From: a virus
Virus record (IMG/VR): IMGVR_UViG_3300032116_001320
Location: 1-23,551 of that record
DNA length: 23,551 bases
Strand: one strand, 5' to 3'
The translations under genes and the position numbers were made by a program. Below, piece after piece: positions 4,493-20,928 of this stretch (within the stretch, counting starts at the first letter, position 1; each line of letters opens with the position of its first letter). The notes under the pieces were generated by a model. The model did no database searches, was not told the origin of the DNA, and was given only the letters and a program-made list of their open reading frames with translations.

Positions 4493-4948
4493 ATGGCATT
4501 TCCAAGCACACCAACTATTGGTGATATATATTCAGAAAATGGTTTTTCCTGGCAGTGGGACGGGGTAGCTTGGTCTGCATATGGTTCATTACAAAATGCT
4601 CTTCAAAGATATAATCTTACATTAAATACAAATGTAGCAGAAACAACAATTACAACTAATTCATCTACTACTATTGATACCTTTTCAAAATCAGCATACT
4701 CTACCGCTGAATATACTGTTCAAATGCAGCAAGGTACTGGATATAGATCTTCTAAATTATTTGTAGTAAATGATGGAACAAATGTTTCTTCTACAGAATA
4801 TGCAATTTTAAATAGTGGATCTGTTCAAATTCCAGCTACCCTGGCATCTGCAATAAGTGGATCAAATGTTGTTATATCAGCTATTGTTACAAATGCTGGA
4901 TCTTCTACCGTTGGAGTTAAAGCCTACCGATTGGCGGTAACAGTCTAG
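4493..4948 (+). CDS. Small fibre / structural protein
   Basis: A 151-aa protein. Residues 4-32 read PSTPTIGDIYSENGFSWQWD then GVAWSAYGS, the short N-terminal module (GDIY...W.WDG..W) seen repeatedly at the start of phage fibre proteins. The rest is Thr/Ser/Ala-rich and beta-like (VAETTITTNSSTTIDTFSKS, YTVQMQQGTGYRSSKLFVV) and ends in VGVKAYRLAVTV. The 'YTVQ...G..RSSK..VV.DG..V...EYA' pattern recurs in phage structural proteins. AGGAG at 4479-4483 is a Shine-Dalgarno 9 nt before the ATG. The TAG stop shares a base with the GTG of the next gene, so the two are translationally coupled. It is probably an adaptor or short fibre subunit; the exact role is unknown. Confidence 0.7.
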   Translation: MAFPSTPTIGDIYSENGFSWQWDGVAWSAYGSLQNALQRYNLTLNTNVAETTITTNSSTTIDTFSKSAYSTAEYTVQMQQGTGYRSSKLFVVNDGTNVSSTEYAILNSGSVQIPATLASAISGSNVVISAIVTNAGSSTVGVKAYRLAVTV

Positions 4949-5619
4949 TGGCTAATTTAAAAGTTTCAGAAGATTTAGTTTCTGAAAATAATTTAGAAAT
5001 TCTTCCACATGTTGGAACAATTTTAACCTATGCTGGAACCACTGCTCCTGCAGGATGGCTATTGTGCAATGGGTCAACTTTTGTTCAAACAACTTATCCA
5101 GAACTGTATGCTCTTCTTGGAAATTCAAATACTCTTCCAGATTTAAGAGAAAGATATTTGATTGGAAAAGGTAGTGGAGCTTTAACTCTTGCTACAAATA
5201 CTGGTGCAAATAATCATACTCATACATATTCTTATGCAGGTAATAATAGTGCAAATACAGCAGTATCACATGCTCATAATGTTGGAACAAATTTTAATGC
5301 AGTATACACTGACCACTGGCATTACTCTAATGTAGATGTTGGAATTGATGGGTATGGAAATAATGTTGCTAACTATAGAGCTGGTAGTTCTCAAAATATG
5401 ACAACTCAAAACCATGCTCACTCAACTGGTGGATATGCAGGAAACTCAAACAATGCTGGATATAATCATGGACATACTGGAAATATTACTAGAAATGATA
5501 CAAATGCTCCTACTCATTTGCATACAGTTGCTTCAAGTGGATCTGGAACAATTTCTTCCAATACAGCAATTAATACTCCACCAACAATTTATTTAAATTT
5601 TATTATTAAGGCAGGATGA
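4948..5619 (+). CDS. Tail-collar domain fibre tip protein, His-rich (1)
   Basis: A 223-aa protein that starts with GTG overlapping the preceding TAG by one base. Residues ~22-75 are a phage tail-collar domain: VGTILTYAGTTAPAGWLLCN, GSTFVQTTYPELYALLG, LPDLRERYLIGKG. Residues ~88-200 are Asn/Gly/His-rich with six HxH motifs (HTH, HAH, HWH, HAH, HGH, HLH), and the C-terminus is the usual hydrophobic strand PPTIYLNFIIKAG. Collar plus HxH repeats is the architecture of phage short and long tail-fibre tips; in T4 gp37, HxH motifs line a trimeric needle and coordinate iron ions. By analogy this is a metal-stabilised trimeric receptor-binding tip. The assignment is strong for the fold and only inferred for metal binding. 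Confidence 0.82.
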   Translation: MANLKVSEDLVSENNLEILPHVGTILTYAGTTAPAGWLLCNGSTFVQTTYPELYALLGNSNTLPDLRERYLIGKGSGALTLATNTGANNHTHTYSYAGNNSANTAVSHAHNVGTNFNAVYTDHWHYSNVDVGIDGYGNNVANYRAGSSQNMTTQNHAHSTGGYAGNSNNAGYNHGHTGNITRNDTNAPTHLHTVASSGSGTISSNTAINTPPTIYLNFIIKAG

Positions 5620-5620
5620 T

Positions 5621-6295
5621 ATGAGTAGTTTTAAAATTAAAGATAATGTTCAAATTTCTACAAGTAAAAATCCATTTTTCTTACCAGGTGCAATAATTTC
5701 TTCCATAGTATCTACAGTACCCAGTGGATGGTTAAATTGTAACGGTCAAGAAGTTTTAATAACACAATATCAAAGCCTATACACTTCAATTGGAACAAGC
5801 TATAATCTTGGAACTGAGACTGTTGGATACTTTAGGCTTCCAAATATATCTTCAAGATATCTTATCCAGAAAACAAGTGGTAGTGGAACTTATGGATCAT
5901 CTTCAGCCCACCTGCACTCTACTTCAGCAAACTATGGACTAGCTAATACAACTGTAGATCATGGACATCCTACAAATAATTATGTAAATAATAATGCAAT
6001 AAACCATGCCCCTGCTGGTGGTGGCAGTGGCGGTGGAACTGATAATAATCCACTAAATGCAAATAAGACTGGATTTTCTTCTGGTGGTGCTTCTGGAGCT
6101 GGTCATTACCATGCTGTTAATTCTGGCGGAAACTCTAGCAACCCTACAGGCAATGATCATGGTCATGGAATGAATACGGGAATTGGAAATGCTTCTCAGG
6201 CACATTCTCATACAGGATCTTTTACAGCTGTAAATAGCACAAGCACATCAATAATTCCACCAAGCTTTGTTGTAAATTATTTTATAAAGACTTAG
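5621..6295 (+). CDS. Tail-collar domain fibre tip protein, His-rich (2)
   Basis: A 224-aa paralogue of the previous gene in domain order. The collar region (~22-82) reads LPGAIISSIVSTVPSGWLNC, NGQEVLITQYQSLYTSIG, FRLPNISSRYLIQKTSG. The Asn/Gly/Ser-rich tip (~95-205) contains five HxH motifs (HLH, HGH, HYH, HGH, HSH) and a Gly-rich loop. It ends in IPPSFVVNYFIKT, matching the conserved C-terminal strand of this class. ATG is 1 nt after the previous stop with no obvious Shine-Dalgarno, so coupling is likely. Sequence identity between the tips is low apart from the HxH spacing, as expected for diversified receptor-binding ends. It may form homotrimers or heterotrimers with its neighbours; the sequence does not tell. 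Confidence 0.8.
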   Translation: MSSFKIKDNVQISTSKNPFFLPGAIISSIVSTVPSGWLNCNGQEVLITQYQSLYTSIGTSYNLGTETVGYFRLPNISSRYLIQKTSGSGTYGSSSAHLHSTSANYGLANTTVDHGHPTNNYVNNNAINHAPAGGGSGGGTDNNPLNANKTGFSSGGASGAGHYHAVNSGGNSSNPTGNDHGHGMNTGIGNASQAHSHTGSFTAVNSTSTSIIPPSFVVNYFIKT

Positions 6296-6313: not shown

Positions 6314-7051
6314 ATGGCAAATATGGATTTAACAACAGATTCTGGTTATGATATTGATGCAAGCATAAATAGCTTTATCCCAGTAGGATCTATAATTTCA
6401 TATGGTCATGGATCATTTTTGTCTAATATTGATGAAATTGGGCTTGTGCCATGCGATGGAAGATCTTTAAATACCTATACTTATAGAAATCTTCATAGAG
6501 TTATTAGTGATATATATGGAGGAACTGCCTATTTAGCTGGAAGTACAGATTTACAATCTGCTACAACAACCTTTACCGTTCCGCTTTTAAATAACTCTGT
6601 TAAATTTATAGCCATGAAAAATGCTCAAGCATTAAATGCATCTGCTGGAACAAATACCCATAACCATGTTGATACTACTCCAGCTACAACTACAGCAGGT
6701 AATGCAACATTTGATCATGGTCATTATTGGACAGCTACTGCAGTTGCAGTTGGAGAATATCATGCACATTATATGGGAGGATTTTATTTTGGATCATCTA
6801 ATGCTCCAGTAAATCAGCCTGTTGGAAAAGTTGATGGAAACCAGTCTGCTGCAGGAAGATATCATGGTCATAGTGGATATGTTCCAACAGTAGGTTTTGG
6901 AGCATATACAGAACACGATCACTATGCAGATGGAAATATGTATACTGCTACAGGAACAAGTCATACTCATACTGTTTCTATAACAACAACACCAGTAGTT
7001 CAAACAGCAATACCAGACTATGTAACAGCAATGTTTTATATAAAAATATAA
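6314..7051 (+). CDS. Tail-collar-like fibre tip protein, His-rich (3)
   Basis: A 245-aa protein, third of the consecutive collar/HxH genes. Residues ~20-100 form a divergent collar domain: SFIPVGSIISYGHGSFLSNI, then GLVPCDGRSLNTYTYRNLHR, and TTFTVPLLNNSVKFI. The tip (~115-225) has six HxH motifs (HNH, HGH, HAH, HGH, HDH, HTH) separated by Gly/Ala/Tyr-rich stretches, and the C-terminus AIPDYVTAMFYIKI is the family's closing strand. The collar is less canonical than in its neighbours (no Trp in the P.GW motif; VPCDG replaces WLLCNG). It is preceded by a TATAAT box ending 6 nt before the ATG, so it could be transcribed separately from the two upstream copies. Probable function: trimeric receptor-binding fibre tip. 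Confidence 0.75.
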   Translation: MANMDLTTDSGYDIDASINSFIPVGSIISYGHGSFLSNIDEIGLVPCDGRSLNTYTYRNLHRVISDIYGGTAYLAGSTDLQSATTTFTVPLLNNSVKFIAMKNAQALNASAGTNTHNHVDTTPATTTAGNATFDHGHYWTATAVAVGEYHAHYMGGFYFGSSNAPVNQPVGKVDGNQSAAGRYHGHSGYVPTVGFGAYTEHDHYADGNMYTATGTSHTHTVSITTTPVVQTAIPDYVTAMFYIKI

Positions 7052-7067: not shown

Positions 7068-7427
7068 ATGGCGTATAAAAAAATACTTGTAGATGATAAA
7101 ATTCTTTTTGCAGTATCAGATACTGAGTTTGTTGACATTTCTAGCTATGAAAAGTTTGAATACTTTTGCAATATATCAAAAGATAACTTTTCAAATTTAG
7201 TTGAAGATGTTAAAAATGGACTAAGAGATGCTGTAGAAGAAGAACTTTTGTCTTTAGAAAATGGTTCAATGAACCATTTGACAAAAACTATGGCTTATGT
7301 TAGACTTTTACAAACAGTATCATCAGCTATCTACATTAAGAATGAAGCTCTTAAAAAAGAGGAAGAGCAAAGACTTGAAAAAGAAAAGTTGATCAAACAA
7401 GCAGAAGAATGGCAGTTTAGTGGCTAA
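7068..7427 (+). CDS. Hypothetical phage protein with C-terminal coiled coil
   Basis: A 119-aa protein I do not recognise. The first ~35 residues look like a small beta unit (YKKILVDDKILFAVSDTEFV); the middle is helical (NLVEDVKNGLRDAVEEELLS) and residues ~95-115 are a charged helix (ALKKEEEQRLEKEKLIKQAE) likely to form a coiled coil. It has no cysteine pair, membrane segment or enzyme motif. It has the strongest Shine-Dalgarno of the window and opens the cassette leading to the glycosyltransferases; it overlaps the next gene by 8 nt, so the two are probably co-translated. A chaperone or adaptor for the fibres upstream is possible from size, helicity and position, but this is a guess. Confidence 0.65.
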   Translation: MAYKKILVDDKILFAVSDTEFVDISSYEKFEYFCNISKDNFSNLVEDVKNGLRDAVEEELLSLENGSMNHLTKTMAYVRLLQTVSSAIYIKNEALKKEEEQRLEKEKLIKQAEEWQFSG

Positions 7428-8139
7428 AGAACCAGTTATAGAATTTGTGGCAGCTAAAAATGGGTATTCAAAAATATTTGACTCTCCAGTTTTAGCTTCT
7501 ACAGTTCTTCCACAATGGTATAAAGATCAAAATTTAAATATTGGTAATAGCATGGCTATTGATTCTAAAACTGGAACAACAGCAAGAACAATTAAAGCTT
7601 GTATGCCAGTATTTGATTTGATGACTGCTGGGTATGTTATTAAAGCACCAGCAGAAATATTGATTAAAAATAATGATTTTGGTGCTCCAGAATCTTCTTG
7701 GTCAATTGATGGAATAAGTTTAATTGAGTCTCATTCAAAAGAACAGTTTAATAAATTTTCTGTTCCAGAAGAATATTTCTCTGGATTTGCACTAAAGTTT
7801 ATTAATCCTTGGATAGTAAAAACTCCACCAGGATATTCAACTATTTTTATGACACCAGCTATGAGAGACGACTTGCCATTTTATTGCATTCCAGCTATTG
7901 TTGATACGGACAAGCATCCTTCTTCAGTAAACTTTCCTTTCTTTATTAAAAAAGGTTTTGAAGGAATTATAGATTATAATACTCCAATAATTCAGATGAT
8001 TCCATTTAAAAGAGAAAACTGGTCTCATAAAATTTTGGAAGCTGATGAAGCACTTGAATATGTTATTTGGCAAAATGCTAAAAGAAAGATTCAGAATAGG
8101 TATAAGACCTTTTTTAGAACAAAGAAAGTTTGGAAATGA
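7420..8139 (+). CDS. Conserved phage protein of unknown function, paralogue A
   Basis: A 239-aa protein starting with GTG inside the end of the previous gene. It is clearly homologous to the following gene: both carry P-x-WYKD near residue 35, [TS]-[IV]-KACMP-x2-D-x2-T-x-GY-x-IK near residue 65, a P-x-GYS motif followed by an R-x-DLP segment, and TPI-x-QM-x-PFKRE-x-W near residue 210. The conserved Cys, Asp, Trp and the IVD-x-D strand suggest a structured, possibly enzymatic domain, but no known catalytic signature is present. The KACMP...GY block distantly recalls proteins annotated as DUF6065; I could not test this. Position directly upstream of two glycosyltransferases suggests a role in making or attaching a virion modification, or in fibre assembly. 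Function unknown. Confidence 0.7.
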   Translation: MAKEPVIEFVAAKNGYSKIFDSPVLASTVLPQWYKDQNLNIGNSMAIDSKTGTTARTIKACMPVFDLMTAGYVIKAPAEILIKNNDFGAPESSWSIDGISLIESHSKEQFNKFSVPEEYFSGFALKFINPWIVKTPPGYSTIFMTPAMRDDLPFYCIPAIVDTDKHPSSVNFPFFIKKGFEGIIDYNTPIIQMIPFKRENWSHKILEADEALEYVIWQNAKRKIQNRYKTFFRTKKVWK

Positions 8140-8846
8140 AAAGTAATAAAAAGATATTTGAAGTTTGGTCAGAAAACGCACAAATTGCTAATAATTGTCC
8201 AGAACCAGTTCCAGCAAAAGAACTTATACCAAAATGGTACAAAGATTTATCTAGATACTCTGTTGGAGACAAGATAAACATAAGTGAAGATGGTGCAGCA
8301 AACATGAGTGTAAAAGCATGCATGCCATTTTTAGATACCCTTACTTCTGGTTACATTATAAAACTACATTGTGATATCTTGGTTGAGTGGACTAGTGAAG
8401 ATAACTTTACAATGAAATGGACTAGCGACATTCCACCGCTTACTCCTAGAGGAAAATCAACAGCAGAATCTATTCCCACTGCTGAAGGATATACTCCATT
8501 CTTACAAGCTTGGGAAATTAGATATCCATTTAGAGCACCAAAAGGATATAGTGTTTTAGTTACTCAGCCTTTTAATAGATTAGATTTGCCAACTCTTGCA
8601 ACTAGTGGCATTGTGGATGCTGATAGAGGAATCGGAACTGGTGGCGTACCTTTTGCACTTAAAAAAAGTTTTTCTGGAATAATTGAAGCTGGTACTCCCA
8701 TATTGCAAATGCTTCCATTCAAAAGAGAAGATTGGAAAAAAGAAAGAGTTGAAGATCCTAAACTAACTCAGTTAGGATTTAGTCCAAGAAACAAAATTAC
8801 TGGATGGTATAAAAATGAACTTTGGCAAAGAAAGAGTTATGAATAA
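8136..8846 (+). CDS. Conserved phage protein of unknown function, paralogue B
   Basis: A 236-aa paralogue of the preceding protein. I chose the ATG at 8136, which overlaps the upstream TGA as ATGA, over a TTG at 8130. It has PKWYKD, SVKACMPFLDTLTSGYIIK, RAPKGYSVLVTQPFN, RLDLP, SGIVDADRG and TPILQMLPFKREDW in the same order as copy A. Copy B adds an EWTSEDNFTMKWTSDIPPL stretch that looks like a beta hairpin and ends in a tryptophan-rich tail (GWYKNELWQRKSYE). Tandem duplication followed by divergence suggests a heteromer or two substrate forms. TAA shares one base with the next ATG. No function can be assigned; see the findings for a hypothesis tied to the downstream glycosyltransferases. Confidence 0.7.
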   Translation: MKSNKKIFEVWSENAQIANNCPEPVPAKELIPKWYKDLSRYSVGDKINISEDGAANMSVKACMPFLDTLTSGYIIKLHCDILVEWTSEDNFTMKWTSDIPPLTPRGKSTAESIPTAEGYTPFLQAWEIRYPFRAPKGYSVLVTQPFNRLDLPTLATSGIVDADRGIGTGGVPFALKKSFSGIIEAGTPILQMLPFKREDWKKERVEDPKLTQLGFSPRNKITGWYKNELWQRKSYE

Positions 8847-9166
8847 TGCTGGATTCAGAAAAGCTTAATGAGTATATTAGAAAACTTGCAAGAACATATG
8901 AAATGATGCAAGAAAGAACTGGTAGACCAAATAAGTATATTTTTCCAGAAGATGTTTATGATGGAGCAGTCAGTATAAATATTGGACTAGCATTACATCC
9001 ATTTGGAGATGTTATAGATTTAGAAAAAGAAAGCATTACAATTAGGTCTGCTTTTTTAATTCCATTTGTTGATGATAAAATATTTAACTTTGGAAAGTTT
9101 GAAGACTTTTATAGAATGGTAGATGCTTGGCATAAACATGAACTTTCTTTTATTAAAGGGGAATAA
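8846..9166 (+). CDS. Small hypothetical phage protein
   Basis: A 106-aa soluble protein of unknown function. It begins with a helical segment (SEKLNEYIRKLARTYEMMQE), followed by RTGRPNKYIFPEDVYDG, a beta-like middle (ALHPFGDVIDLEKESITIRS, FLIPFVDDKIF) and a terminal helix with DAWHKHELSF. There are no cysteines and no recognisable motif. Start and stop each overlap the neighbouring gene by one base (TAATG on both sides), so it is locked into the translational chain running from 7068 to 10706. It is probably functionally linked to the paralogue pair and the glycosyltransferases by this coupling alone. Confidence 0.62.
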   Translation: MLDSEKLNEYIRKLARTYEMMQERTGRPNKYIFPEDVYDGAVSINIGLALHPFGDVIDLEKESITIRSAFLIPFVDDKIFNFGKFEDFYRMVDAWHKHELSFIKGE

Positions 9167-9804
9167 TGAAAAGAGTAGCAATACTTACACCATCTTATGA
9201 TGGCTCTGTTTCTATAGAATATTCTTCAAGTCTTGCAAATTCAGCAATACTTTTAAATAATAATGGATACACTCTAGATCATCTTTATGTAAATGGAGAA
9301 GCCATTGTTCAAAGTGCAAGAAATAAATTATTTTTCAATGCCTACCACAAAGACTATGATTGTGTAGTCTGGATTGATTCAGATATTGAGTGGAATCCAA
9401 AAGATCTTTTAAAATTAGTTAGTAGCCCACTAGATGTAATTGGTGCAACGTATAGAAGAAAAACAATGAAAGAAATGTATGTTGCAAAGGTTTCTAATTT
9501 AATTAGTGGAGATGTGATAGAAGTTGATGGTATTGGTTTTGGATTCTTAAAGATGTCTAGAAAAGTTATTGATTCCCTCTGGAATACAAATGAAAGTTAT
9601 GAAGATGACAAGAGTCTTTGTAAAAATGTTTTTGAAGTAGTTGTAAAAGATGGTCAAATGTATTCTGAAGACTATGTAGCCTGTAAAAAAATCAAAGACT
9701 TAGGTTTCAATGTTTATTTAGATAAAACAATTAATCTTTCTCATAAATCTAAGATTAATCTAATAGGAAGTTTTTTAAATTGGGAAAAACAATATTTAAC
9801 GTAG
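9166..9804 (+). CDS. GT-A fold glycosyltransferase
   Basis: A 212-aa protein with the layout of a small GT-A (GT2-like) glycosyltransferase: an N-terminal Rossmann-like strand MKRVAILTPSYDG, an NGEAIVQSARN helix, and VVWIDSDIEW with the DSD metal/nucleotide-sugar site at residues 71-73. A VIGATYRRK strand, the acceptor-side DGIGFGFL segment (~121-128) and a late SEDYVACKK motif (~167-175) with acidic residues suited to act as catalytic base follow. It would transfer a sugar from a nucleotide donor to a phage or host acceptor in the cytoplasm. AGGGGA just upstream gives a reasonable ribosome site, and its end overlaps the next glycosyltransferase by 25 nt. Sugar and acceptor are unknown; neighbouring fibre proteins are the natural candidates. 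Confidence 0.8.
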   Translation: MKRVAILTPSYDGSVSIEYSSSLANSAILLNNNGYTLDHLYVNGEAIVQSARNKLFFNAYHKDYDCVVWIDSDIEWNPKDLLKLVSSPLDVIGATYRRKTMKEMYVAKVSNLISGDVIEVDGIGFGFLKMSRKVIDSLWNTNESYEDDKSLCKNVFEVVVKDGQMYSEDYVACKKIKDLGFNVYLDKTINLSHKSKINLIGSFLNWEKQYLT

Positions 9805-10706
9805 ACCAGTCTTGGATTGGTGGAACAGAGTTAATGCTTTTAAATCTTGAAGAAAAAGTTTTTTCACAAATCCCAGAATTAAAAGAATGGAACTGGATTG
9901 TTGCTCCAGGAGAAATTAATCTTAGAAAAGATGGTAAAAACATTGCCTATGTTCATCTTGGAGAATTTGAAGGAGATTTAAGTTGGTTACAAAATCCTTT
10001 AGTTGCTCACATTGTATTTGTTTCCTATTATCAATATCAAAGATTTATTGAAAGATACCCTGGAATAGATACATCAAAATGTCATGTATTAAAAAATGCA
10101 ATTGACAGAATTAACTTTCCAGAAAAAGATTACTCATCAAAGATTAAACTAGTATTTCATTCTGAGCCTTATAGAGGGTTGGACCGTCTCCTACTAGCAC
10201 TTAGTCTGTTAAAAGACCTCACAGACATTGAGCTACACGTTTTTGGGGATTTAAATACAACTGTCGTAGACTGGAAGATAGAGTTCCAAGATAAAATAAA
10301 ATTAATGTGTGAGCAAGACGATAGAGTAATTTTGCATGGAAGAAAGTCAAATGAGGAAGTGAGAGAGTTTCTTAAAGAAGCTCACATGTTTGCCTACCCC
10401 TGTACCTGGAGAGAAACATCTTGTATATCTCTAATTGAAGCCATGTCAGCAGGTCTTTATTGCATTACAAATAGTTTTAGTGTTTTGCCAGAAACTGGAA
10501 TAGGGTTTACAAAAGTTTACCCATTTCTAGTAGATCCAGAAAAAGAGGCAAAAGTCCTGGCAGAAGAAATAAAGCATGGAATATATTTATTAAAAACTGA
10601 AAAGTTTCATGCAAAAAGCTATATACCCTTTATTGATAAAGAGTATTCCTGGAGTTCAAGAATTAAACAATGGGAAGACTTTTCTAATAGAATCAACATG
10701 GTATAA
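9780..10706 (+). CDS. GT-B (GT4-like) glycosyltransferase
   Basis: A 308-aa protein with the two halves of a GT-B glycosyltransferase. The N-terminal WIGGTELMLLNLEE (residues 12-25) is the donor/acceptor loop of GT4 enzymes. HVLKNAIDRINFP closes the first domain, and KLVFHSEPYRGLDRLLLALS with ELHVFGD and RVILHGR begins the second. ETSCISLIEAMSAG (~211-224) matches the E-x7-E nucleotide-sugar binding motif. The only start that keeps the GGTEL loop is a TTG at 9780, inside the end of the upstream GT-A gene; the next ATG would delete it. The 25-nt overlap implies tight coupling. It is shorter than typical cellular GT4 enzymes (350-400 aa), as phage versions often are. Acceptor unknown; virion protein glycosylation is likely. 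Confidence 0.8.
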   Translation: MGKTIFNVDQSWIGGTELMLLNLEEKVFSQIPELKEWNWIVAPGEINLRKDGKNIAYVHLGEFEGDLSWLQNPLVAHIVFVSYYQYQRFIERYPGIDTSKCHVLKNAIDRINFPEKDYSSKIKLVFHSEPYRGLDRLLLALSLLKDLTDIELHVFGDLNTTVVDWKIEFQDKIKLMCEQDDRVILHGRKSNEEVREFLKEAHMFAYPCTWRETSCISLIEAMSAGLYCITNSFSVLPETGIGFTKVYPFLVDPEKEAKVLAEEIKHGIYLLKTEKFHAKSYIPFIDKEYSWSSRIKQWEDFSNRINMV

Positions 10707-10725: not shown

Positions 10726-11109
10726 ATGGCATTTCCAGGTACATATAATTTTAACTACTATGCTGGTGACACTTTTGAGTTTTTTGTATACCCTAAAAAT
10801 TCTACTGGTGGAGTTTTTGATGATCTTTCCGAATATACTCCTCTTTTCTTAGTAGCAACAGCTAGAGGCTCTGCATCAGCTTCTGTAATTTCTTCTCTTG
10901 ATTCAAACGATGCTCTGGCTACAGTTGAAGATGGAGACCATATTTCTTGCACGATTAAACCAGATGGTGGTAGGCAGCTAACTGCTGGAACGTACTTTTA
11001 TGACGTACAGATTGAAAACACAACAGCTTCAGCTGCTGCATCTTTTGGAAAAGTCTTTACATTACTAACTGGAACAATAAATGTTACACAAGATGTGGCG
11101 GTAACATAA
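10726..11109 (+). CDS. Baseplate / fibre adaptor-like structural protein
   Basis: A 127-aa protein resembling the N-terminal Ig-like domain of phage baseplate upper and fibre proteins. It has FPGTYNFNYYAGDTFEFFVY (a strand with the frequent '[YF]-x-GD-[TS]-F' motif), then LSEYTPLFLVATARGSAS, DGDHISCTIKP, and LTAGTYFYDVQIEN followed by KVFTLLTGTINVTQDVAVT. This 'TAGTYxYDVQ...G.V.TLLxGxIxVxxDV' end is common in small phage structural proteins that precede fibre genes. A Shine-Dalgarno AAAGGTG lies 11-17 nt upstream. It begins a three-gene fibre module; the next ATG is 1 nt after its TAA. It probably links the downstream fibre to the baseplate. Confidence 0.7.
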   Translation: MAFPGTYNFNYYAGDTFEFFVYPKNSTGGVFDDLSEYTPLFLVATARGSASASVISSLDSNDALATVEDGDHISCTIKPDGGRQLTAGTYFYDVQIENTTASAAASFGKVFTLLTGTINVTQDVAVT

Positions 11110-11110
11110 T

Positions 11111-11695
11111 ATGGCAATAGATACTATTATATCTAATGATGAATTAGTTGTAGTTGGACCACCTGCCTCAGTATCTGTAAGTGTTGACATTGGTCCACAA
11201 GGAGAAAGAGGTTCTCAGTTCTACTCTGGAGTAGGAACTCCTGCACAGAATGCATCAAGTCTTGTGGATGCAAAAGTAAATGATCTTTACATCAATAGAC
11301 TTCTTGGCGGAAATTATGGAGTAGTCTATAAGCTTAATGCAGTTCCTGGTGGTAGCTCTTGGCAACCAATTTTAAAATTTCAACCTATATCTCATAGCAT
11401 TCAAAAGCTAGTAAACTTTACTTCAGGAACTGGATCGATATCCATTCCTTTAGCAGATTTTTATTCTAATGCTCCAGAAGGTTTGAACGTCAATACTATT
11501 TTAGTCCAGGCAACTGCAGAATTAGATAATCCAGCATTTGTATCCGTTTCTAATAAAGAAATTGCGGATGTGTCTTCTGTTAAAACATTTATTGCAGAAC
11601 TAAAAGGATCTGAGTTCTCTTCTGGATCAGTATCTTTTATATCTTCTTCTGCAACTCCTGTAAACTTTTATATAACTGCTGGAGTAGGTGCTTAA
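11111..11695 (+). CDS. Minor tail / fibre protein with short collagen-like stretch
   Basis: A 194-aa protein whose N-terminal DTIISNDELVVVGPPASVSV leads into DIGPQGERGS, a short collagen-like G-x-y element common near the start of actinophage and cyanophage fibre proteins. Next comes FYSGVGTPAQNASSLVDAKV then NDLYINRL and GVVYKL, a variant of the 'G..Y.n...g.vy.l...sW' attachment module. The C-terminal ~90 residues (SIQKLVNFTSGTGSISIPLA, NVNTILVQATAEL, SFISSSATPVNFYITAGVG) are beta-rich. It is the middle gene of the three-gene module and is probably part of the stalk. No enzymatic motif. Role inferred from modules and neighbours. Confidence 0.68.
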   Translation: MAIDTIISNDELVVVGPPASVSVSVDIGPQGERGSQFYSGVGTPAQNASSLVDAKVNDLYINRLLGGNYGVVYKLNAVPGGSSWQPILKFQPISHSIQKLVNFTSGTGSISIPLADFYSNAPEGLNVNTILVQATAELDNPAFVSVSNKEIADVSSVKTFIAELKGSEFSSGSVSFISSSATPVNFYITAGVGA

Positions 11696-11696
11696 T

Positions 11697-12911
11697 ATGG
11701 CAGAAAAAATAAGTTCTAGCAAAGGCTTTGATGACACAACTTTTGATACATATGTGCCAGAACTAGAAGAAGCTGCAGATATTAGAAATGCCCTTGAGTT
11801 ATTTTTCTATGGAGATTCTACAGATGGAAATACAACTGGAGATGTAAGTCTTCATGCAACTATTGTAGATTTTGATACAAGAATTTCTGCAAATGATGCT
11901 GCTTTTGATGGACATACTGGTGCTATCTCAGACGTACATGGTATTGGTGCAGGTAATCTAGTTGTTGGAACTGGAACAGTTCAAACTTTAACTAATAAAA
12001 CTTTGACAAGTCCAAATATTGCATCTCCATCAATTAGTTCTCCAAATGTTACTGGGACAGCAACCTTGCCTTCAACAACATCTATTGGAAATGTTAGTTC
12101 AACTGAAATTAGTTATTTAGATGGGGTAACATCTTCAATTCAAACACAGATAAATACTAATACCCCAACTGGAATGATTTCAATACACTCTGGTTCAGTT
12201 GCTCCAACTGGATGGCTACTTTGTGATGGAACCTCTTACGGATCTGCTGCATATACAACATTATTTAATGTAATTGGCTATACCTTTGGAGGATCTGGTG
12301 CAAATTTTAATGTTCCAAATTTAAAGGGAAAAGTTGTAGTTGGAATAGATGGTTCTCAAGTAGAATTTGATACTCGTGGTGAAACTGGTGGAACAATGGC
12401 TCACCAACACACAATTGCAGAAAGTAGTGCAATTGGTTCAAGCAATCATGATGGTCACGGTCACAATATGAATTCTCACAGTCATGCAAATTCTATAAGT
12501 GAAACTGGTGCTGGAGATCACGGACACTCTACAAATCAAATTACCAATACTGGAAATTCTGGAAATCATGGTCATACACAAACTGGGTCTGTAACTGCAA
12601 ATAATACTGCAGGAAGAAAAGTAGCTTCTGGTAGTACTTCTAATACACTGCAAGACATAGGTCATGCTCATGCAGATAACTTTGCGGTTTCAGCTGGTGG
12701 AGACCATGATCATGCAATTACTACTACAAACATATCTACTAATTCTGGAAATCATTCACACAGTGTTAGCATAACAAATAATAATAATAATGCACATTCA
12801 GCAATTGCTGGTGGAAGCCATGCCCATACAACTACTGTCCCACAACATACAAGTGATTCATTATCAAATTTACAACCTTATATAGCATTACACTATATAA
12901 TTAAGATATAG
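11697..12911 (+). CDS. Long tail fibre protein with tail-collar domain and His-rich tip (4)
   Basis: A 404-aa protein. I start it at ATG 11697, 1 nt after the upstream stop, rather than the in-frame GTG at 11688. N-terminal helix ELEEAADIRNALELFFYGDS (~20-40) may be the attachment part. Residues ~85-155 are the shaft repeat of aquatic phage fibres (NKTLTSPNIASPSISSPNVT, then EISYLDGVTSSIQTQIN). The collar domain (~158-220) reads IHSGSVAPTGWLLCDGTSYG, AYTTLFNVIG, FNVPNLKGKVVVGID. The tip carries nine HxH motifs and ends LQPYIALHYIIKI. It is the most complete of the four collar/HxH proteins and the likely main fibre. By analogy to T4 gp37, the HxH tip may bind iron; not shown here. Confidence 0.85.
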   Translation: MAEKISSSKGFDDTTFDTYVPELEEAADIRNALELFFYGDSTDGNTTGDVSLHATIVDFDTRISANDAAFDGHTGAISDVHGIGAGNLVVGTGTVQTLTNKTLTSPNIASPSISSPNVTGTATLPSTTSIGNVSSTEISYLDGVTSSIQTQINTNTPTGMISIHSGSVAPTGWLLCDGTSYGSAAYTTLFNVIGYTFGGSGANFNVPNLKGKVVVGIDGSQVEFDTRGETGGTMAHQHTIAESSAIGSSNHDGHGHNMNSHSHANSISETGAGDHGHSTNQITNTGNSGNHGHTQTGSVTANNTAGRKVASGSTSNTLQDIGHAHADNFAVSAGGDHDHAITTTNISTNSGNHSHSVSITNNNNNAHSAIAGGSHAHTTTVPQHTSDSLSNLQPYIALHYIIKI

Positions 12912-13497: not shown

Positions 13498-14589
13498 ATG
13501 CCAACTCCGACAATTGCTTTTCTAACTTATGACTGGTCATTTGGTGTAAAACCATTACAACCAAACGGCTGTGGTTGGTATAGATGTTACTTGCCAATGA
13601 AGCAATTGAAGGAGCATGGTTGGGAAAGTGGAATTGGTCTTCCAGGATTTAGTGAAGAACACGCTTTTGGAATTTTATTACCAGAAGAAAAAGCAATCCA
13701 TGGTTGGGATATTGTTGTTTTAAAACTTATTATGCTTGAAAGATTTGTTGACCATGTTAAAAGAGCAAGGGAGCTTGGTCAAAAGATTGTTGTTGATATT
13801 GATGATCATATGGAAGGTCTTGAAGAAACAAATCTTGCCTATAAAACAACAAGTCCAGAATCTAATCCAAATAATAATAGAGATCATTATGTTGCAATTA
13901 TGGATCAGGCAGATGCTTTAATTACATCTACCCCATTCCTGTATGATTTTTATAAAGCAAAATATCCAGAAAAGCCAATATTTATTGTAAGAAATGGCAT
14001 TGATCTTGAGCGATGGAATATGCGAAATGATCATAAGGGCTGGCTCCCTACTTTTGGTTGGGTTGGTGCAACCCCATGGAGATCTGGAGATCTAGAAACC
14101 CTCAATCCATTCTTTGGAGAATTTTTAAAACAAAAACATTTAAAGTTTCATCATGCAGGAAATATTATTAATGCTCCAACTGCAGCACAACAAATTGGAA
14201 TTGATAAGAGATTATGCACAGTAGAGCCTATGAAAACAATGCTAGGCGTTCCAGAACTTTATAGAAAAATGGATGTTGGAATTGTTCCATTAAGAGATGT
14301 GCCATTTAATCATGCTAAGTCATACCTTAAAGGTCTAGAAAATGCAGCAGCAGGAATTCCTTTTATCGCATCTGGCGGTCTTCCAGAATATCAACTATTT
14401 GCTGATTCTGGAGTTGGAAGAATTGCAAATACACCTGATGAGTGGATTGGTCATATGACAGAACTTTTAAATCCAAAAACAAGGCTTGAAGAAAGAACCA
14501 AGAATCGTGAAATCATAACTGAGCAATTCTCTATGAAGCAAAGAGGTTATGACTGGGATGAAGTATTAAGAAAAATTCTTGCACTATAA
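13498..14589 (+). CDS. GT-B glycosyltransferase (group 1-like)
   Basis: A 363-aa protein, full length for a phage GT-B glycosyltransferase. The N-terminal domain has IAFLTYDWSFGVKPL, GCGWYRCYLPMKQL (residues 24-37, acceptor loop) and KIVVDIDDH (96-104), a motif common in phage glycosyltransferases of this group. ADALITSTPFL and IFIVRNGIDLERW close that half. The C-terminal half has FGWVGATPWRSGDL, VGIVPLRDVPFN and KSYLKGLENAAAGIPFIASG (273-292), the nucleotide-sugar binding loop with Glu280. It transfers an activated sugar to an unknown acceptor. Only 6 nt separate it from the holin-like gene and no Shine-Dalgarno is seen, so coupling or read-through is likely. It is quite different from the GT-B at 9780 and probably has another substrate. 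Confidence 0.82.
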   Translation: MPTPTIAFLTYDWSFGVKPLQPNGCGWYRCYLPMKQLKEHGWESGIGLPGFSEEHAFGILLPEEKAIHGWDIVVLKLIMLERFVDHVKRARELGQKIVVDIDDHMEGLEETNLAYKTTSPESNPNNNRDHYVAIMDQADALITSTPFLYDFYKAKYPEKPIFIVRNGIDLERWNMRNDHKGWLPTFGWVGATPWRSGDLETLNPFFGEFLKQKHLKFHHAGNIINAPTAAQQIGIDKRLCTVEPMKTMLGVPELYRKMDVGIVPLRDVPFNHAKSYLKGLENAAAGIPFIASGGLPEYQLFADSGVGRIANTPDEWIGHMTELLNPKTRLEERTKNREIITEQFSMKQRGYDWDEVLRKILAL

Positions 14590-15404: not shown

Positions 15405-17345
15405 ATGTCATTTATTGACTCCAATGGATCTATTACAGATCCTTATAGAAATTTTATCCATATCTCAAGATATGCTCGCTGGATTGAAAGCGAAAACCGC
15501 AGAGAGACTTGGCAGGAAACTGTTGACAGATACTGCAATTTTATGAAAGACCATTTGGTATTAAACTATGGCTATAGTCCAAATGCAAAGATTTTTGATG
15601 AAGTAAGAGAAGCTATCCTAAAGCATCACATCATGCCTTCTATGAGGGCACTGATGACTGCAGGACCTGCTTTAGAGAGAGACCATATCGCAGCATACAA
15701 CTGTTCTTTCATTGCTGTAGATAGCCCTAGAGCCTTTGATGAGGCTATGTACATTTTAATGAATGGAACTGGTGTTGGATTTAGTGTTGAGCAAAAGTAT
15801 ATTAATCAGCTACCAGTAATTGCTGAGTCATTCTTTCAAACAAATACAACTATTGTTGTGGATGATTCAAAGCTTGGTTGGGCAAAAGCTTTTAAAGAAT
15901 TGATTGCACTTCTTTACCAGGGTCAAATTCCAAACTGGGACGTATCAAAGGTTCGTCCAGCAGGAGCAAGACTAAAGGTATTTGGAGGAAGAGCTTCTGG
16001 ACCAGATCCACTTGTTGACCTATTTAATTTCACTATTGAAACTTTTAAACTTGCTGCAGGAAGAAGATTAAAGTCTATTGAGGCACACGATCTTATGTGT
16101 AAGGTTGGAGAAGTTGTTGTTGTTGGTGGAGTTCGCAGAAGTGCTTTGATTTCACTTTCAAATCTTGACGACTTTGAAATGGCTAAGGCTAAGAGCGGTC
16201 AGTGGTGGGAAGGAAATGGACAGAGAGCGTTAGCAAATAACTCTGCTGTATACAACTCTAAGCCAAATACTGCACAGTTCCTTCGTGAATGGCGTAACCT
16301 ATATGAATCAAAGTCTGGAGAACGTGGCATCTATAACATTGATTCTGTTAGAAAGCACATTGACAAGTTTGGTCGTAGAGATTCAAGTCTAGTTGGTGGA
16401 ACAAATCCTTGTGGAGAAATTCTTCTTCGTCCAAATGAATTTTGTAACCTTACAGAAGTTGTAATTGAAGCATCTGATACAAAAGAAACTTTGCTTGAAA
16501 AGGTTCGCCTTGCTACCATCCTTGGAACTTGGCAGTCAACCTTAACAAACTTTAAGTATATTAGAAAAACTTGGAGAGATAACTGTGAAGAAGAAAGACT
16601 TCTTGGAGTTTCTTTGACAGGCATTTATGGAAATAAAATTACTGCTACAAATGGAAAGGCTCTAGAGGCACTTCTTGATGAAATGAGAGATCTATCTGTT
16701 TCAGTAAATGATAAAGAGGCTAAGTCTTTAAATATCAATCCTTCAGTGTCAATTACCTGTGTAAAGCCTTCAGGAACTGTCTCACAGCTTACAGGAGTAT
16801 CCTCTGGTATTCACCCATGGTACTCAGAATATTACATTAGAAGTGTTAGAGCAGATAATAAAGATCCACTAACACAATTCTTAAAAGATTCTGGAATTCC
16901 ATTTGAGCCAGATGTAATGAAGCCTGAAGCGACTACAGTATTCTATTTTCCAATCAAGGCTCCAAAAAATGCAATTCTTACAAAAGACTTGACTGCAATT
17001 GACCATCTTGAAATGTGGAAGACTTACAGAACTCATTGGACAGAGCACAATCCAAGTGTAACTGTTAATGTTGAAGAAGATGAATGGATGCGTGTAGGAG
17101 CTTGGGTATTTGATAACTTTGACTCAATTGGTGGAGTATCTTTCTTACCAGCAGTAGAGCACTCTTATAAGCAAGCTCCTTATCAGGAAGTCTCTAAAGA
17201 AGAATACGAGTCTTGGTTAAGTAAGATGCCTAATTCAATTCGTTGGGATATGCTTTCTTTATATGAGACAACTGATGGAACAACTGGAAGCCAGGAGCTA
17301 TCTTGTGTTGCTGGGGCATGTGAAATTGTAGACATTACTAAGTAG
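15405..17345 (+). CDS. nrdJ: Class II (adenosylcobalamin-dependent) ribonucleotide reductase, monomeric
   Basis: A 646-aa enzyme reducing ribonucleotides (triphosphates in the characterised Lactobacillus leichmannii relative) to deoxyribonucleotides in the cytoplasm, with B12 generating the thiyl radical. All key residues are visible: Cys100 in AAYNCSF (partner of the active-site disulfide), NPCGEILLRPNEFCNLTE with radical Cys336, Glu338 and Cys347, and the C-terminal shuttle pair Cys634/Cys639 in SCVAGACE. The 11-residue Cys336-Cys347 and 5-residue Cys634-Cys639 distances match C408/C419 and C731/C736 of the L. leichmannii enzyme. It is shorter than that enzyme (739 aa). GTGVGFSVEQ and KPSGTVSQLTGVSSGIHP are further class II signatures. 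It is a classic phage auxiliary gene, here inside the structural region. Arg codons include many CGT/CGC, unlike the AGA-dominated fibre genes. Confidence 0.95.
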   Translation: MSFIDSNGSITDPYRNFIHISRYARWIESENRRETWQETVDRYCNFMKDHLVLNYGYSPNAKIFDEVREAILKHHIMPSMRALMTAGPALERDHIAAYNCSFIAVDSPRAFDEAMYILMNGTGVGFSVEQKYINQLPVIAESFFQTNTTIVVDDSKLGWAKAFKELIALLYQGQIPNWDVSKVRPAGARLKVFGGRASGPDPLVDLFNFTIETFKLAAGRRLKSIEAHDLMCKVGEVVVVGGVRRSALISLSNLDDFEMAKAKSGQWWEGNGQRALANNSAVYNSKPNTAQFLREWRNLYESKSGERGIYNIDSVRKHIDKFGRRDSSLVGGTNPCGEILLRPNEFCNLTEVVIEASDTKETLLEKVRLATILGTWQSTLTNFKYIRKTWRDNCEEERLLGVSLTGIYGNKITATNGKALEALLDEMRDLSVSVNDKEAKSLNINPSVSITCVKPSGTVSQLTGVSSGIHPWYSEYYIRSVRADNKDPLTQFLKDSGIPFEPDVMKPEATTVFYFPIKAPKNAILTKDLTAIDHLEMWKTYRTHWTEHNPSVTVNVEEDEWMRVGAWVFDNFDSIGGVSFLPAVEHSYKQAPYQEVSKEEYESWLSKMPNSIRWDMLSLYETTDGTTGSQELSCVAGACEIVDITK

Positions 17346-17376: not shown

Positions 17377-20300
17377 ATGTCCTACACACGTTCAAATCTT
17401 TATGCTTCAAGGGTCTATGCAGAACATCCAGTAGCTTTGTGGTCAATGGATGAGCCAAATTATTTTGTCTCTTTAATTTCTCAAGAAGAAAAACAGATAA
17501 CAGAATCTAATTGGTATTTTGACAATGCTATTAGTTCAGCTTCTGTATTTACACTTTCTGGATATCCTTTTGATGACCTAAACGTAAATAAAAATTTAAA
17601 CGTAAATAAAGTGTATCTTGCCACAGCCTCAGCAGCAACAGTAGAGTTTACAGTCTCCTTATCTTCCTCAATATCTTATTTAGATTTTGATCCTAATAAG
17701 GGAAGCGTATGTGTTTCAAATTATATTTATATTCCTGAGGAAACCTTTGTTTTTTATGTAGATATAGGATTCATTGTTGGAGGAGAGGAATTTTATAATA
17801 GATATTCATATCTAAAGACTAATAACTGGGAAAAAATTTCTCATACACATCCAACTTCTAACGATAACTTTGTTCCTTTTATTAGAGTAGTTTTTGATCC
17901 AGATGTGGATGCAAATGAGCAAGAAACCTCTATTTACTTTAATGGAGTTTCTGTTGGTCAATGGTCAGAGCCTTATAATTCAACAAGCACTGGAATATTT
18001 ACAAGTACTCTGCCAGAAAGTGTATCATCTTTAATAGATTTTGAATATAATATACAGTCTGCATCTATTGATGCATATGGCTTTGACGATTCCGATAGAG
18101 GGTACGCACTTTCTCTAAACAATTCCTTATTAGCACAGCTGTCTGGAACCCCAATGGTTTATGGCTCAAGTGGAAATATAAGGCTTAATAAAAATGTTTT
18201 TCAAACAGTTACTTCTTCTTCAGCCTATGCAGAGTATATAACAAATACAGGATCAACAATATACCTTACAGAACAGCAGTATAATAAATTTCCATCTTTA
18301 ATTTTTCCAGGAAAAGGATTTTTAAATCAGTTTGGATATAATAAAACTTTAACTACAGAGTTTTGGCTAAGAATTAGTCCAGAAGAAACAGGGCAGTCAA
18401 GAATTTTTGGACCCCTGTCATCTGATGATGGTATATACATTGATAAAGATTTTATAAAAGTTAATGTTGGTAAATATACAAAATCTTATTTTATTGGCAA
18501 ATGGTATAGACCAATGCTTGTACATTTTTGCCAAAGTCCAAACGAAATTTTCTTAATGATTAATGGAGAAAAAGTAATATCAATTCCAATAGAATCTTTA
18601 ATCATTAATACATTTCCACCAGTAGACGAGGATCTTTTAGGCTTTTACACGGATGATAAAATTTACTTACATGAGATAGATTCGTTTTCAATATTTCCAT
18701 ACGCCGTTGCAGAGCAGGTGGCAAAAAAGAGATATGTATTTGGTCAAGGAGTTCAAGAACAGGAAAATATTATTGGAGCACTTAATGGAACTCTATCTTA
18801 TGTAGACTTCCCGTTTTCTGGATATAGTTCTACAATTAGGTATCCAGATAGAACAAAATGGGAAGACGGATTTTATAACAATATAGTTGCTAATAATCAA
18901 GGCATATCTTTACCAGATTATCAACTTCCACAAATATTATTTAACAATAACACCACTTTATCAAACTTACAAAAATCTTCTATTACTGCAAACTTCTATG
19001 AAGAAAATTATTCAGTTCAAGATGAAGACTATCCATTTATTTTAATGGATCCAAACGATTCATATATTGATAATGGCTCTTATGGAACAATTTATTTTTC
19101 AAAATTAAATCAGACAAACTATCAAACAAGATCTATTCACTCTATATTAAAGTCATCAGATGATGTGTCAACCAGACAATCTTTAATTTACATATCAAAC
19201 AATGCCCAGGCAAACACTTTTGAAGTTGCAATTAACTCTGGAAGTATTCAATATTTATACAATGATACTGTGTTAAATTCAGCCTCTATTTCAACAAACT
19301 CTTACTTTGCAGTTGGTATTGATTTTAATAAAATTGAACAATCCTATTATTCTATAGTTGGATCATTTTTTTCAAGACCAGACACTCTTTCATTAAACTT
19401 TGCAGGAAATCAAGAAGATGTATTTTTAGGAAAGGTTTTTTCTTTAACAATAAATAACGACTTCTTTACAGACAAAGATGGCTCTCAAATATTTAACTCC
19501 TCTGGCATTGCAGTTAAAAACTTTGATATAAATTTGTATGACTACATTGGATCTTACACACTTATTCCTAAATTAACAAATACCACTATTATGTTGGATG
19601 TTGCAGTATCTGGATACTGGGAAAACTCTATACCACTTTCATATTTTGGTAAATTTATAACTCAAGATAATGGAAAAACAAAGTACGATCTAGATGTAAT
19701 TCAATTTAATATTGATACGCCAAGTTCTATATTTTCAAAATATAATGAAGATTCTTCAAATTATCAAGAGTCTTTGTCAACAAAAGTTTATGTAACTCTG
19801 CAAAATATTCTTGAAATTGGTCAGACTGTATACACTCAATTTACAAATACAGAGCTTATTGGAATGGATAGAATTCTAGACTTAGGAGAAGTAACTTCTT
19901 CAGAGGATACAAAGTATAAAATTAATGATGGAACAGTTATCTACCCCCCAAAGGACGTATCTGGATTTACAAACTATTATATAACCTTGCACATTGAAAT
20001 ATCTTCAAAAGGAATAAATTCAGAAAAGGTAGCAGTAAAAAATATGGGACTATCTGCACTATCTTTTGATGAGGGACAGTTTTACTCAATAAACACTCCT
20101 GCTGCAGGAAAATTTTATCCAATAGTTAAAAATGAAGACCAGTATGTATATAAAAGAAAGATTCCTGTGATTATTGATACAGAATCTTCCCCGTACCTTT
20201 ATTTATCTGGAGATTCTGGAATAGAAGTTTTACCAGAAATTGATGAAAACTTAGTAAAGGGTGTTTCTGTTCCAATAAATCAAAGCTTAAAACCTGCACA

Positions 20301-20928
20301 AGAAGTTGTAGGTTTACAAATATTTTTAATGTATAACGAGTCTAATTCTTTTACTGAAAGAAAAAAGATTGGAAAAATATTTAGTTCAAATGATTCTTTT
20401 GACATTGTTTTAGTGCCTGAAGAAGATGGGAAAAGAGCCTTCTTTAAAATTTTTGATACAGAAACTGGGGCAGAATTTACTACTGCAAAATCATTTTTAA
20501 ATGGAAAATTAGTAAACGACATAGTTATTGAACCATTGACATGGAATAGCATCTCTATATCCCTTCAAGAAAACTCAATACCACTTGATCAAATTATTGG
20601 TGAAATAGAGATATATTCAGGAGTAAAGGTTGATAATGTTGCAAGTTTTATAGAGTTAAATCCAATCAAACAAAACCTTATTGTATATGATGAATGGGAT
20701 ATTGTTAATGATGAAGATTGGTCTTATTGGTCATCTTCTGCAACCTGGACACAAGTTTTGGATGAGCAGTCTTTAGAAATTACAGTTCTTTCTTTAGACG
20801 GAGAAGAATTGTTTAATACATATTCTGGTCTTTCTTCAGGTATTGGAAGCGATAATAGCATAGTTAATGTAACTTCTGATTCTGTTGTAATATTAAATGA
20901 CGCAGACTGGGACATTTATTTGGTTTAA
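17377..20928 (+). CDS. Large LamG-like structural / tail appendage protein
   Basis: The longest gene here, 1183 aa. The N-terminus YAEHPVALWSMDEP is the entry strand typical of LamG/concanavalin-type domains in phage proteins. A LamG-like jelly roll is visible at ~305-430 (PSLIFPGKGFLNQFG, TTEFWLRISPEE, WYRPMLVHFCQ, EIFLMINGEKVISIPI) and a second lectin-like unit at ~586-655 (IHSILKSSDD, SLIYISNNAQANTFEVAINS, YFAVGIDFNKIEQ). The long C-terminal part is acidic, Ser/Asn-rich and beta-like, ending in NDADWDIYLV. No signal peptide, protease or hydrolase motif is evident. The 18-bp tandem duplication near residue 68 adds NVNKNL. The likely role is a large virion-surface fibre or side appendage binding host polysaccharide. 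Its position just before the portal module is unusual for a fibre gene. The domain call is moderate; the virion position is unknown. Confidence 0.72.
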   Translation: MSYTRSNLYASRVYAEHPVALWSMDEPNYFVSLISQEEKQITESNWYFDNAISSASVFTLSGYPFDDLNVNKNLNVNKVYLATASAATVEFTVSLSSSISYLDFDPNKGSVCVSNYIYIPEETFVFYVDIGFIVGGEEFYNRYSYLKTNNWEKISHTHPTSNDNFVPFIRVVFDPDVDANEQETSIYFNGVSVGQWSEPYNSTSTGIFTSTLPESVSSLIDFEYNIQSASIDAYGFDDSDRGYALSLNNSLLAQLSGTPMVYGSSGNIRLNKNVFQTVTSSSAYAEYITNTGSTIYLTEQQYNKFPSLIFPGKGFLNQFGYNKTLTTEFWLRISPEETGQSRIFGPLSSDDGIYIDKDFIKVNVGKYTKSYFIGKWYRPMLVHFCQSPNEIFLMINGEKVISIPIESLIINTFPPVDEDLLGFYTDDKIYLHEIDSFSIFPYAVAEQVAKKRYVFGQGVQEQENIIGALNGTLSYVDFPFSGYSSTIRYPDRTKWEDGFYNNIVANNQGISLPDYQLPQILFNNNTTLSNLQKSSITANFYEENYSVQDEDYPFILMDPNDSYIDNGSYGTIYFSKLNQTNYQTRSIHSILKSSDDVSTRQSLIYISNNAQANTFEVAINSGSIQYLYNDTVLNSASISTNSYFAVGIDFNKIEQSYYSIVGSFFSRPDTLSLNFAGNQEDVFLGKVFSLTINNDFFTDKDGSQIFNSSGIAVKNFDINLYDYIGSYTLIPKLTNTTIMLDVAVSGYWENSIPLSYFGKFITQDNGKTKYDLDVIQFNIDTPSSIFSKYNEDSSNYQESLSTKVYVTLQNILEIGQTVYTQFTNTELIGMDRILDLGEVTSSEDTKYKINDGTVIYPPKDVSGFTNYYITLHIEISSKGINSEKVAVKNMGLSALSFDEGQFYSINTPAAGKFYPIVKNEDQYVYKRKIPVIIDTESSPYLYLSGDSGIEVLPEIDENLVKGVSVPINQSLKPAQEVVGLQIFLMYNESNSFTERKKIGKIFSSNDSFDIVLVPEEDGKRAFFKIFDTETGAEFTTAKSFLNGKLVNDIVIEPLTWNSISISLQENSIPLDQIIGEIEIYSGVKVDNVASFIELNPIKQNLIVYDEWDIVNDEDWSYWSSSATWTQVLDEQSLEITVLSLDGEELFNTYSGLSSGIGSDNSIVNVTSDSVVILNDADWDIYLV
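17579..17614 (+). repeat. 18-bp in-frame tandem duplication
   Basis: TAAACGTAAATAAA recurs at 18-nt period (17579-17592 and 17597-17610), encoding NVNK twice. It adds six residues without breaking the frame, consistent with replication slippage. Confidence 0.6.

Follow-up and report, generated by a model that had tools for sequence, protein, structure and literature searches.

In Dictyostelium and Toxoplasma, Skp1-type modification is a pathway composed of a prolyl hydroxylase and a hydroxyproline glycosyltransferase (PMC7864055, PMC11570480). Phage glycosyltransferases have been proposed to decorate virion proteins in mycobacteriophages (PMC11256854, the abstract of which mentions no partner of the DUF6065 type), and those of freshwater actinophages have been discussed as DNA- or wall-modifying enzymes (PMC10202952). 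The family to which the proteins considered here belong by profile, DUF6065 (PF19541)/phrog_7084, has no function assigned in either library, and no mention of DUF6065 was found in the literature searched. The locus compared here with these systems is a cassette of six + strand genes at positions 7068-10706 of a 23.5-kb virus record (IMGVR_UViG_3300032116_001320; this whole stretch is referred to as the window), which lies inside a tail-fibre array and encodes two paralogues of this family together with two glycosyltransferases. The paralogues are predicted to be dUTPase-superfamily (beta-clip) proteins, and the explanation that we favour, with a probability of ca. 0.4, is that they act as a dUTPase-fold pair within a module that modifies fibres.

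An earlier, sequence-only reading of the window had noted that the two paralogues, starting at 7420 and 8136, share WYKD, KACMP..D..T.GY and QM.PFKRE.W blocks, and had left them unassigned. The shared blocks were recovered, the two proteins being 29% identical, and this likeness is not due to chance since both match phrog_7084 (E-value 4.6e-49 over residues 5-232 for paralogue 1 and 2.6e-35 over residues 7-208 for paralogue 2). They can thus be assigned to a family. Compared with DUF6065 proper, the window copies fall under the Pfam cut-off of 26.6 bits, with paralogue 2 scoring 16.8 bits (E 0.0049) and paralogue 1 giving no match to DUF6065 in the Pfam scan. Because DUF6065 is matched by 23 of 49 relatives (best E 5.5e-37), phrog_7084 and DUF6065 can be regarded, by profile, as one superfamily. 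Members occur in haloarchaeal tailed viruses (ca. 50 records), in some cyanophages, in at least 517 IMG/VR loci and in 106 plasmid records, mostly of Sinorhizobium and Rhizobium, several of which are annotated as "DUF6065 family protein"; alphaproteobacterial genomes are among the carriers. Nine bacterial contigs were detected with a profile built from an alignment of closer copies, whereas a scan of the bacterial contigs with DUF6065-proper phage proteins found nothing. Four contigs (L034, L095, L102 and L125) carry four or five members each, at different places. A search of the PDB by sequence with the family profile gave at best a peptidyl-tRNA hydrolase, with an E-value of 0.72 only. A packaging or replication protein, which the sequence-only reading had named as the kind of match that would speak against it, was rejected as the identity of the paralogues, no such match having been obtained in the profile searches.

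The dUTPase fold of the paralogues is well supported as a prediction. AlphaFold2 models, built from different but overlapping alignments, reached mean predicted local distance difference test values of 95.5 (paralogue 1) and 92.2 (paralogue 2), and dUTPases were the top PDB matches of both (Foldseek E 8e-4 and 3e-4, and VIA Z of ca. 10 and ca. 9, for copies 1 and 2, respectively). With 2py4, for example, the root-mean-square deviation was 2.7 over 115 residues for copy 1 and 2.9 over 116 for copy 2. Sequence homology to dUTPases is suggested more modestly. Because the first iterated family profile had drawn in two true dUTPases, the homology test was redone with a clean, dUTPase-free profile, for which the best match outside the family among 1843 open reading frames (ORFs) was a true dUTPase (E 5.6e-4). 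Alignment to a dUTPase alignment with hhalign gave an E-value of 4.7e-4 with a probability of only 32%, over a stretch spanning motifs II to IV in which a -IVDTD block is paired with -IIDSDY and GTPI-Q with GDRIAQ.

The likeness to the trimeric dUTPase/dCTP deaminase superfamily (PF00692) thus comprises the predicted fold over ca. 115-130 residues, the motif III Asp and the Gly/Gln region of motif IV. The catalytic Asp of motif III is kept, position 162 being D in 136 and E in 13 of 153 copies. In contrast with true dUTPases, the paralogues have a longer N-terminal part, an invariant Cys and a WYK block, and the family consensus has not kept the motif I Asp, the RSS of motif II, the YRG of motif III or the glycine-rich motif V arm (RGxGGFGSTG), the position of which is taken by a conserved YK..FW..K.Y tail. 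Neither window paralogue matched a Pfam dUTPase, and the PF00692 profile, which did not match the family, only found separate genes in the same genomes. Such dUTPase/dCTP-deaminase-type genes coexist with the family in 6 of 28 records (G014, G015, G024, G006, G007 and HF2). An ordinary dUTPase was therefore rejected, since these motifs are missing and dUTPase-family genes coexist. What the family has instead is a signature of 17 scored positions, all of which are kept by 110 of the 153 copies, including both window paralogues: Cys61 is present in 153/153, and Trp33, Lys59, Asp66, Gly71, Tyr72, Asp79, Ser140, Pro146, Asp/Glu162, Asp164, Pro189, Gln192, Pro195, Arg198, Tyr228 and Lys236 are near-invariant. 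This signature looks like a ligand pocket or an active site.

Pairing of two copies is a recurrent feature. Two or more copies were found in 41 of 96 dereplicated loci and were adjacent in 26. A gene of 223 amino acids, present at 16 loci and lying directly 5' of a family member at 14 of them, also proved to encode a divergent copy (hhalign E 1.7e-5, probability 79%). A tree of 114 copies, with moderate backbone support, showed no tandem pair made up of sisters, and in 21 of 33 pairs the first copy branched on the copy-1 side and the second on the copy-2 side, as in the window, which argues for an ancient and ordered pair. Such a pair would fit two subunits with different tasks. Two close kin of copy 1 (L115 and L080) were scored as single-copy, on contigs that are possibly fragments.

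The genes enriched within two genes of family members encode a prolyl-4-hydroxylase-like 2-oxoglutarate (2OG)-Fe(II) oxygenase, whose nearest PDB relatives are prolyl 4-hydroxylases, a PF11397-related transferase (hhalign E 3e-37 against a PF11397 protein) and divergent family members. PF11397 is a family that we take to include the Skp1 N-acetylglucosamine (GlcNAc)-transferase. The oxygenase makes up 5.3% of genes at a distance of 1-2, 5.4% at 3-5, 0.8% at 6-10 and 0% beyond, and the transferase cluster 5.5%, 0.6%, 0.4% and 0%, a decay that partly restates the choice of clusters because these were picked for being frequent neighbours. The following two comparisons do not depend on this choice in the same way. 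In a permutation test based on Pfam families, 15 of 25 contigs had a 2OG oxygenase, glycosyltransferase or halogenase within 4 kb, versus 7.7 expected (p 0.0005), a signal carried mostly by the 2OG oxygenases (p 0.0005) and by GT2 (p 0.018). Tandem loci carried a 2OG oxygenase or a glycosyltransferase of the profiled clusters in 29/39 cases versus 8/50 for other loci (p 3e-8); for modifying enzymes at loci with full context the figures were 27/30 versus 4/27 (p 6e-9), and the contrast between tandem and single copies persisted after dereplication at 50% identity (p 0.001). Among 120 near genes the Pfam tally included glycine-rich adhesin (7), 2OG (6), Collar (4), GlcNAc-transferase (2), halogenase (2) and carbamoyltransferase (2), as well as ribonucleotide reductase, and 120 far genes were mostly of replication type (PhoH, nucleases, AAA), with 2OG (2) and Mtd_N (3). 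The combination of a prolyl-4-hydroxylase-like oxygenase with a PF11397-type transferase in relatives of the window pair offers an analogy with Skp1 modification, from which the window cassette differs in having no oxygenase and in its glycosyltransferases, which are Anp1/GT2-like and GT-B.

Further genes were seen beside family members. A cluster of ca. 190-240 amino acids, directly 3' of members at eight loci (e.g. L084:8757-9398 and L110:8760-9407), has a WHDHGG...H pattern like that of another 2OG-type oxygenase and gave no clear match in Pfam. Tryptophan-halogenase genes adjoin or lie near members at L013:11743-13362 and L030:2692-4275 (PF04820 in both) and at L073:2173-3669 (by eye), and in one actinobacterial contig a member directly follows a halogenase-like gene (by eye).

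From the computed family membership, predicted fold, pocket-like signature, pairing and neighbours, we infer a possible oligomer, ligand, target and reaction as follows. The paralogues would constitute an ancient two-component pair, by analogy with dUTPases possibly assembling into a mixed trimer in which a ligand pocket lies where subunits meet, and would be co-translated with the GT-A and GT-B enzymes. The pair would help to modify the tail-fibre or adhesin proteins encoded around it after translation, most likely through glycosylation, either catalysing a step or presenting a substrate, with a nucleotide or nucleotide-sugar as a conceivable ligand. In relatives, the partners are prolyl-4-hydroxylase-like 2OG-Fe(II) oxygenases, enzymes of the PF11397 GlcNAc-transferase type, carbamoyltransferases and flavin halogenases. 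The sequence-only reading had suggested that the paralogues synthesise, bind or install a sugar on the fibres. A fibre-decorating role is the best-supported reading because an association with glycosyltransferases, with these oxygenases and with fibre or adhesin genes holds for the paired form; that the paralogues themselves perform the synthesis, binding or attachment is conjecture.

Several observations weigh against such a role. It is deduced from gene neighbourhood, and the reaction and the fibre target are deduced with it. Single copies without a nearby glycosyltransferase are common, as in haloarchaeal viruses, the L023/L026/L028 viruses and rhizobia. The whole genomes of HF2 and HRTV-7, each with a single copy, gave no GT1, GT2 (PF00534/PF00535), 2OG or halogenase match, and the neighbours of rhizobial copies are an S8 peptidase and an extracytoplasmic function (ECF) sigma factor, in many cases together with its anti-sigma factor. 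In the permutation test, halogenase alone (p 0.24) and GT1 alone (p 0.60) were not significant, and tree-based independent pairs (2.0 versus 0.1) were concordant in direction with too few transitions for significance. The outcome that the sequence-only reading had named as refuting it, that the paralogues occur widely without glycosyltransferases, thus holds for single copies and not for tandem pairs, and co-occurrence with glycosyltransferases across phages is accordingly a property of the latter. Since single copies occur in ribonucleotide reductase, sigma-factor and other settings, the data do not support glycosylation as a role of the entire family; it is the paired form that is genuinely linked to fibres and their glycosylation.

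Two cellular settings were also recorded. The rhizobial plasmids (L152, L153 and L155-L159) share a conserved cellular setting, in which the DUF6065 gene has an ECF sigma factor and an anti-sigma or hypothetical gene as neighbours, joined on most of the plasmids by an S8 peptidase. In two Rhodobacteraceae contigs (L068 and L070) a member lies beside ManC- and GalE-like genes (by eye), the L070 copy looking broken because no intact ORF spans the match.

The fibre-modifying module is favoured over three other explanations. The paralogues could be enzymes of nucleotide metabolism, that is, divergent deoxynucleotide hydrolases or deaminases of the dUTPase/dCTP deaminase superfamily for which the vicinity of fibres and glycosyltransferases is a mere variable region. 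The predicted fold and the retained motif III Asp would agree with this, as would the single copies that have a nearby gene for ribonucleotide reductase (HF2, cyanophage S-RIM4 and the L023/L026/L028 viruses) or thymidylate synthase (HRTV-7). We consider it unlikely, given the loss of the other motifs, the lack of a PF00692 match to the family, its coexistence with true dUTPase/dCTP-deaminase-type genes in some genomes, and the presence of ribonucleotide reductase near only 8 of 89 loci; it also leaves unexplained the tie of tandem copies to hydroxylases and glycosyltransferases. To a similar degree, we doubt that the paralogues themselves belong to the fibre apparatus, as trimeric beta-clip caps, adaptors or assembly chaperones, with the nearby enzymes acting elsewhere. 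Glycine-rich adhesin, collar, fn3 and Mtd_N fibre genes do lie close by, and the HF2 copy is within a few genes of receptor-binding fibre genes (PMC7230728), yet Cys, Asp, Arg, Lys and Trp residues are strictly kept in phages, archaeal viruses and bacterial chromosomes, which is unlike fast-evolving fibre parts, and cellular copies exist without surrounding phage genes. The HF2 virion study identified four major bands only and so speaks neither for nor against a minor virion protein. Least probable is that the target of the cassette is a glycan on the surface of the host, altered for receptor masking or superinfection exclusion, rather than the fibres of the phage itself, as could be suggested by the proposal that freshwater actinophage glycosyltransferases alter the cell wall (PMC10202952) and by the two bacterial members next to ManC- and GalE-like genes, since the cassette is overlap-coupled inside a fibre array and its partners elsewhere are oxygenases of a typically protein-modifying kind.

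The organization of the cassette and its flanks is given in Table 1. As had been claimed from the sequence, five of the six genes overlap the preceding one, by 8 nt (GTGGCTAA), 4 nt (ATGA), 1 nt (TAATG), 1 nt (TAATG) and 25 nt, in that order, one base being common to both genes at each TAATG junction. The mechanical ORF of paralogue 2 starts at a TTG (8130), and it is the ATG at 8136 that overlaps the preceding stop. The first gene has a strong ribosome site (AAGGAGG) and the GT-B gene has AGGAAG upstream of its start. The same six genes recur in unchanged order in L003, L005, L006, L007 and L008, indicating that the cassette is a conserved unit.

Table 1. Genes of the cassette and of its immediate flanks in the window
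Feature	Coordinates	Strand	Basis or remark
Gene 1, 119 amino acids, no family; opens the overlapping unit	7068..7427	+	Kept in the same lineage, L003-L009
Paralogue 1, "first-copy" subfamily, DUF6065/phrog_7084, dUTPase-like fold (predicted)	7420..8139	+	Profile, AlphaFold2
Paralogue 2, "second-copy" subfamily, DUF6065/phrog_7084, dUTPase-like fold (predicted)	8136..8846	+	Profile, AlphaFold2
106-amino-acid protein, no family	8846..9166	+	Equivalent position in L003-L008
GT-A glycosyltransferase, DSD motif, phrog_1574/Anp1-GT2-like	9166..9804	+	Profile matches
GT-B glycosyltransferase, Glycos_transf_1, phrog_2170; TTG start	9780..10706	+	Profile matches
Three paralogous tail collar/fibre genes, 5' of the cassette	4948-5619, 5621-6295, 6314-7051	+	Profiles; one cluster
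phrog_1084 protein, 194-amino-acid protein and fourth fibre paralogue (11688-12911), 3' of the cassette	10726..12911	+	Profiles

Both glycosyltransferases and the fibre genes on either side, all of which the sequence-only reading had recognized, were borne out by profile matches: GT-A matched phrog_1574 (E 9.5e-25) and, slightly below Pfam's own cut-off, Anp1 (E 1.9e-5), and GT-B matched Glycos_transf_1 (E 1.1e-15) and phrog_2170 (E 2e-29); a PDB sequence search gave no match for either. The window therefore shows the coupling of glycosyltransferase to fibre genes by which phage tail-fibre glycosylation modules are recognized. No association was found between the 119- and 106-amino-acid proteins and the other frequent neighbours tested. 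Outside the cassette, a third glycosyltransferase (13498-14589; phrog_7162, E 7e-29) is located beyond the fourth fibre gene, and a ribonucleotide reductase (15405-17345; phrog_367, E 4e-188) lies ca. 4.7 kb 3' of the cassette, a vicinity to the family that is also seen in several other viruses. Between the latter and the portal-side genes, an ORF of 1183 amino acids (17377-20928) had no PHROG match. The window virus is likely a phage of an actinobacterium because its portal protein shares ca. 52% identity with the portal of Streptomyces phages, Comrade and Muntaha among them.

These data provide a testable fold and partner set for a family of unassigned function whose members are spread over hundreds of viruses, those of haloarchaea included, and over the genomes of rhizobia. 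The wider proposal, that through the ancient pairing of two subfamilies a dUTPase-derived protein became a dedicated part (an enzyme or a substrate-presenting subunit) of a system for the hydroxylation and glycosylation of viral adhesins in many bacteriophages, with cellular relatives, is more doubtful than the local one. If true, it would mean that a nucleotide-enzyme fold has been re-used in protein modification, and it hints that hydroxylation and glycosylation of phage adhesins may be a common, little-studied layer of host recognition.

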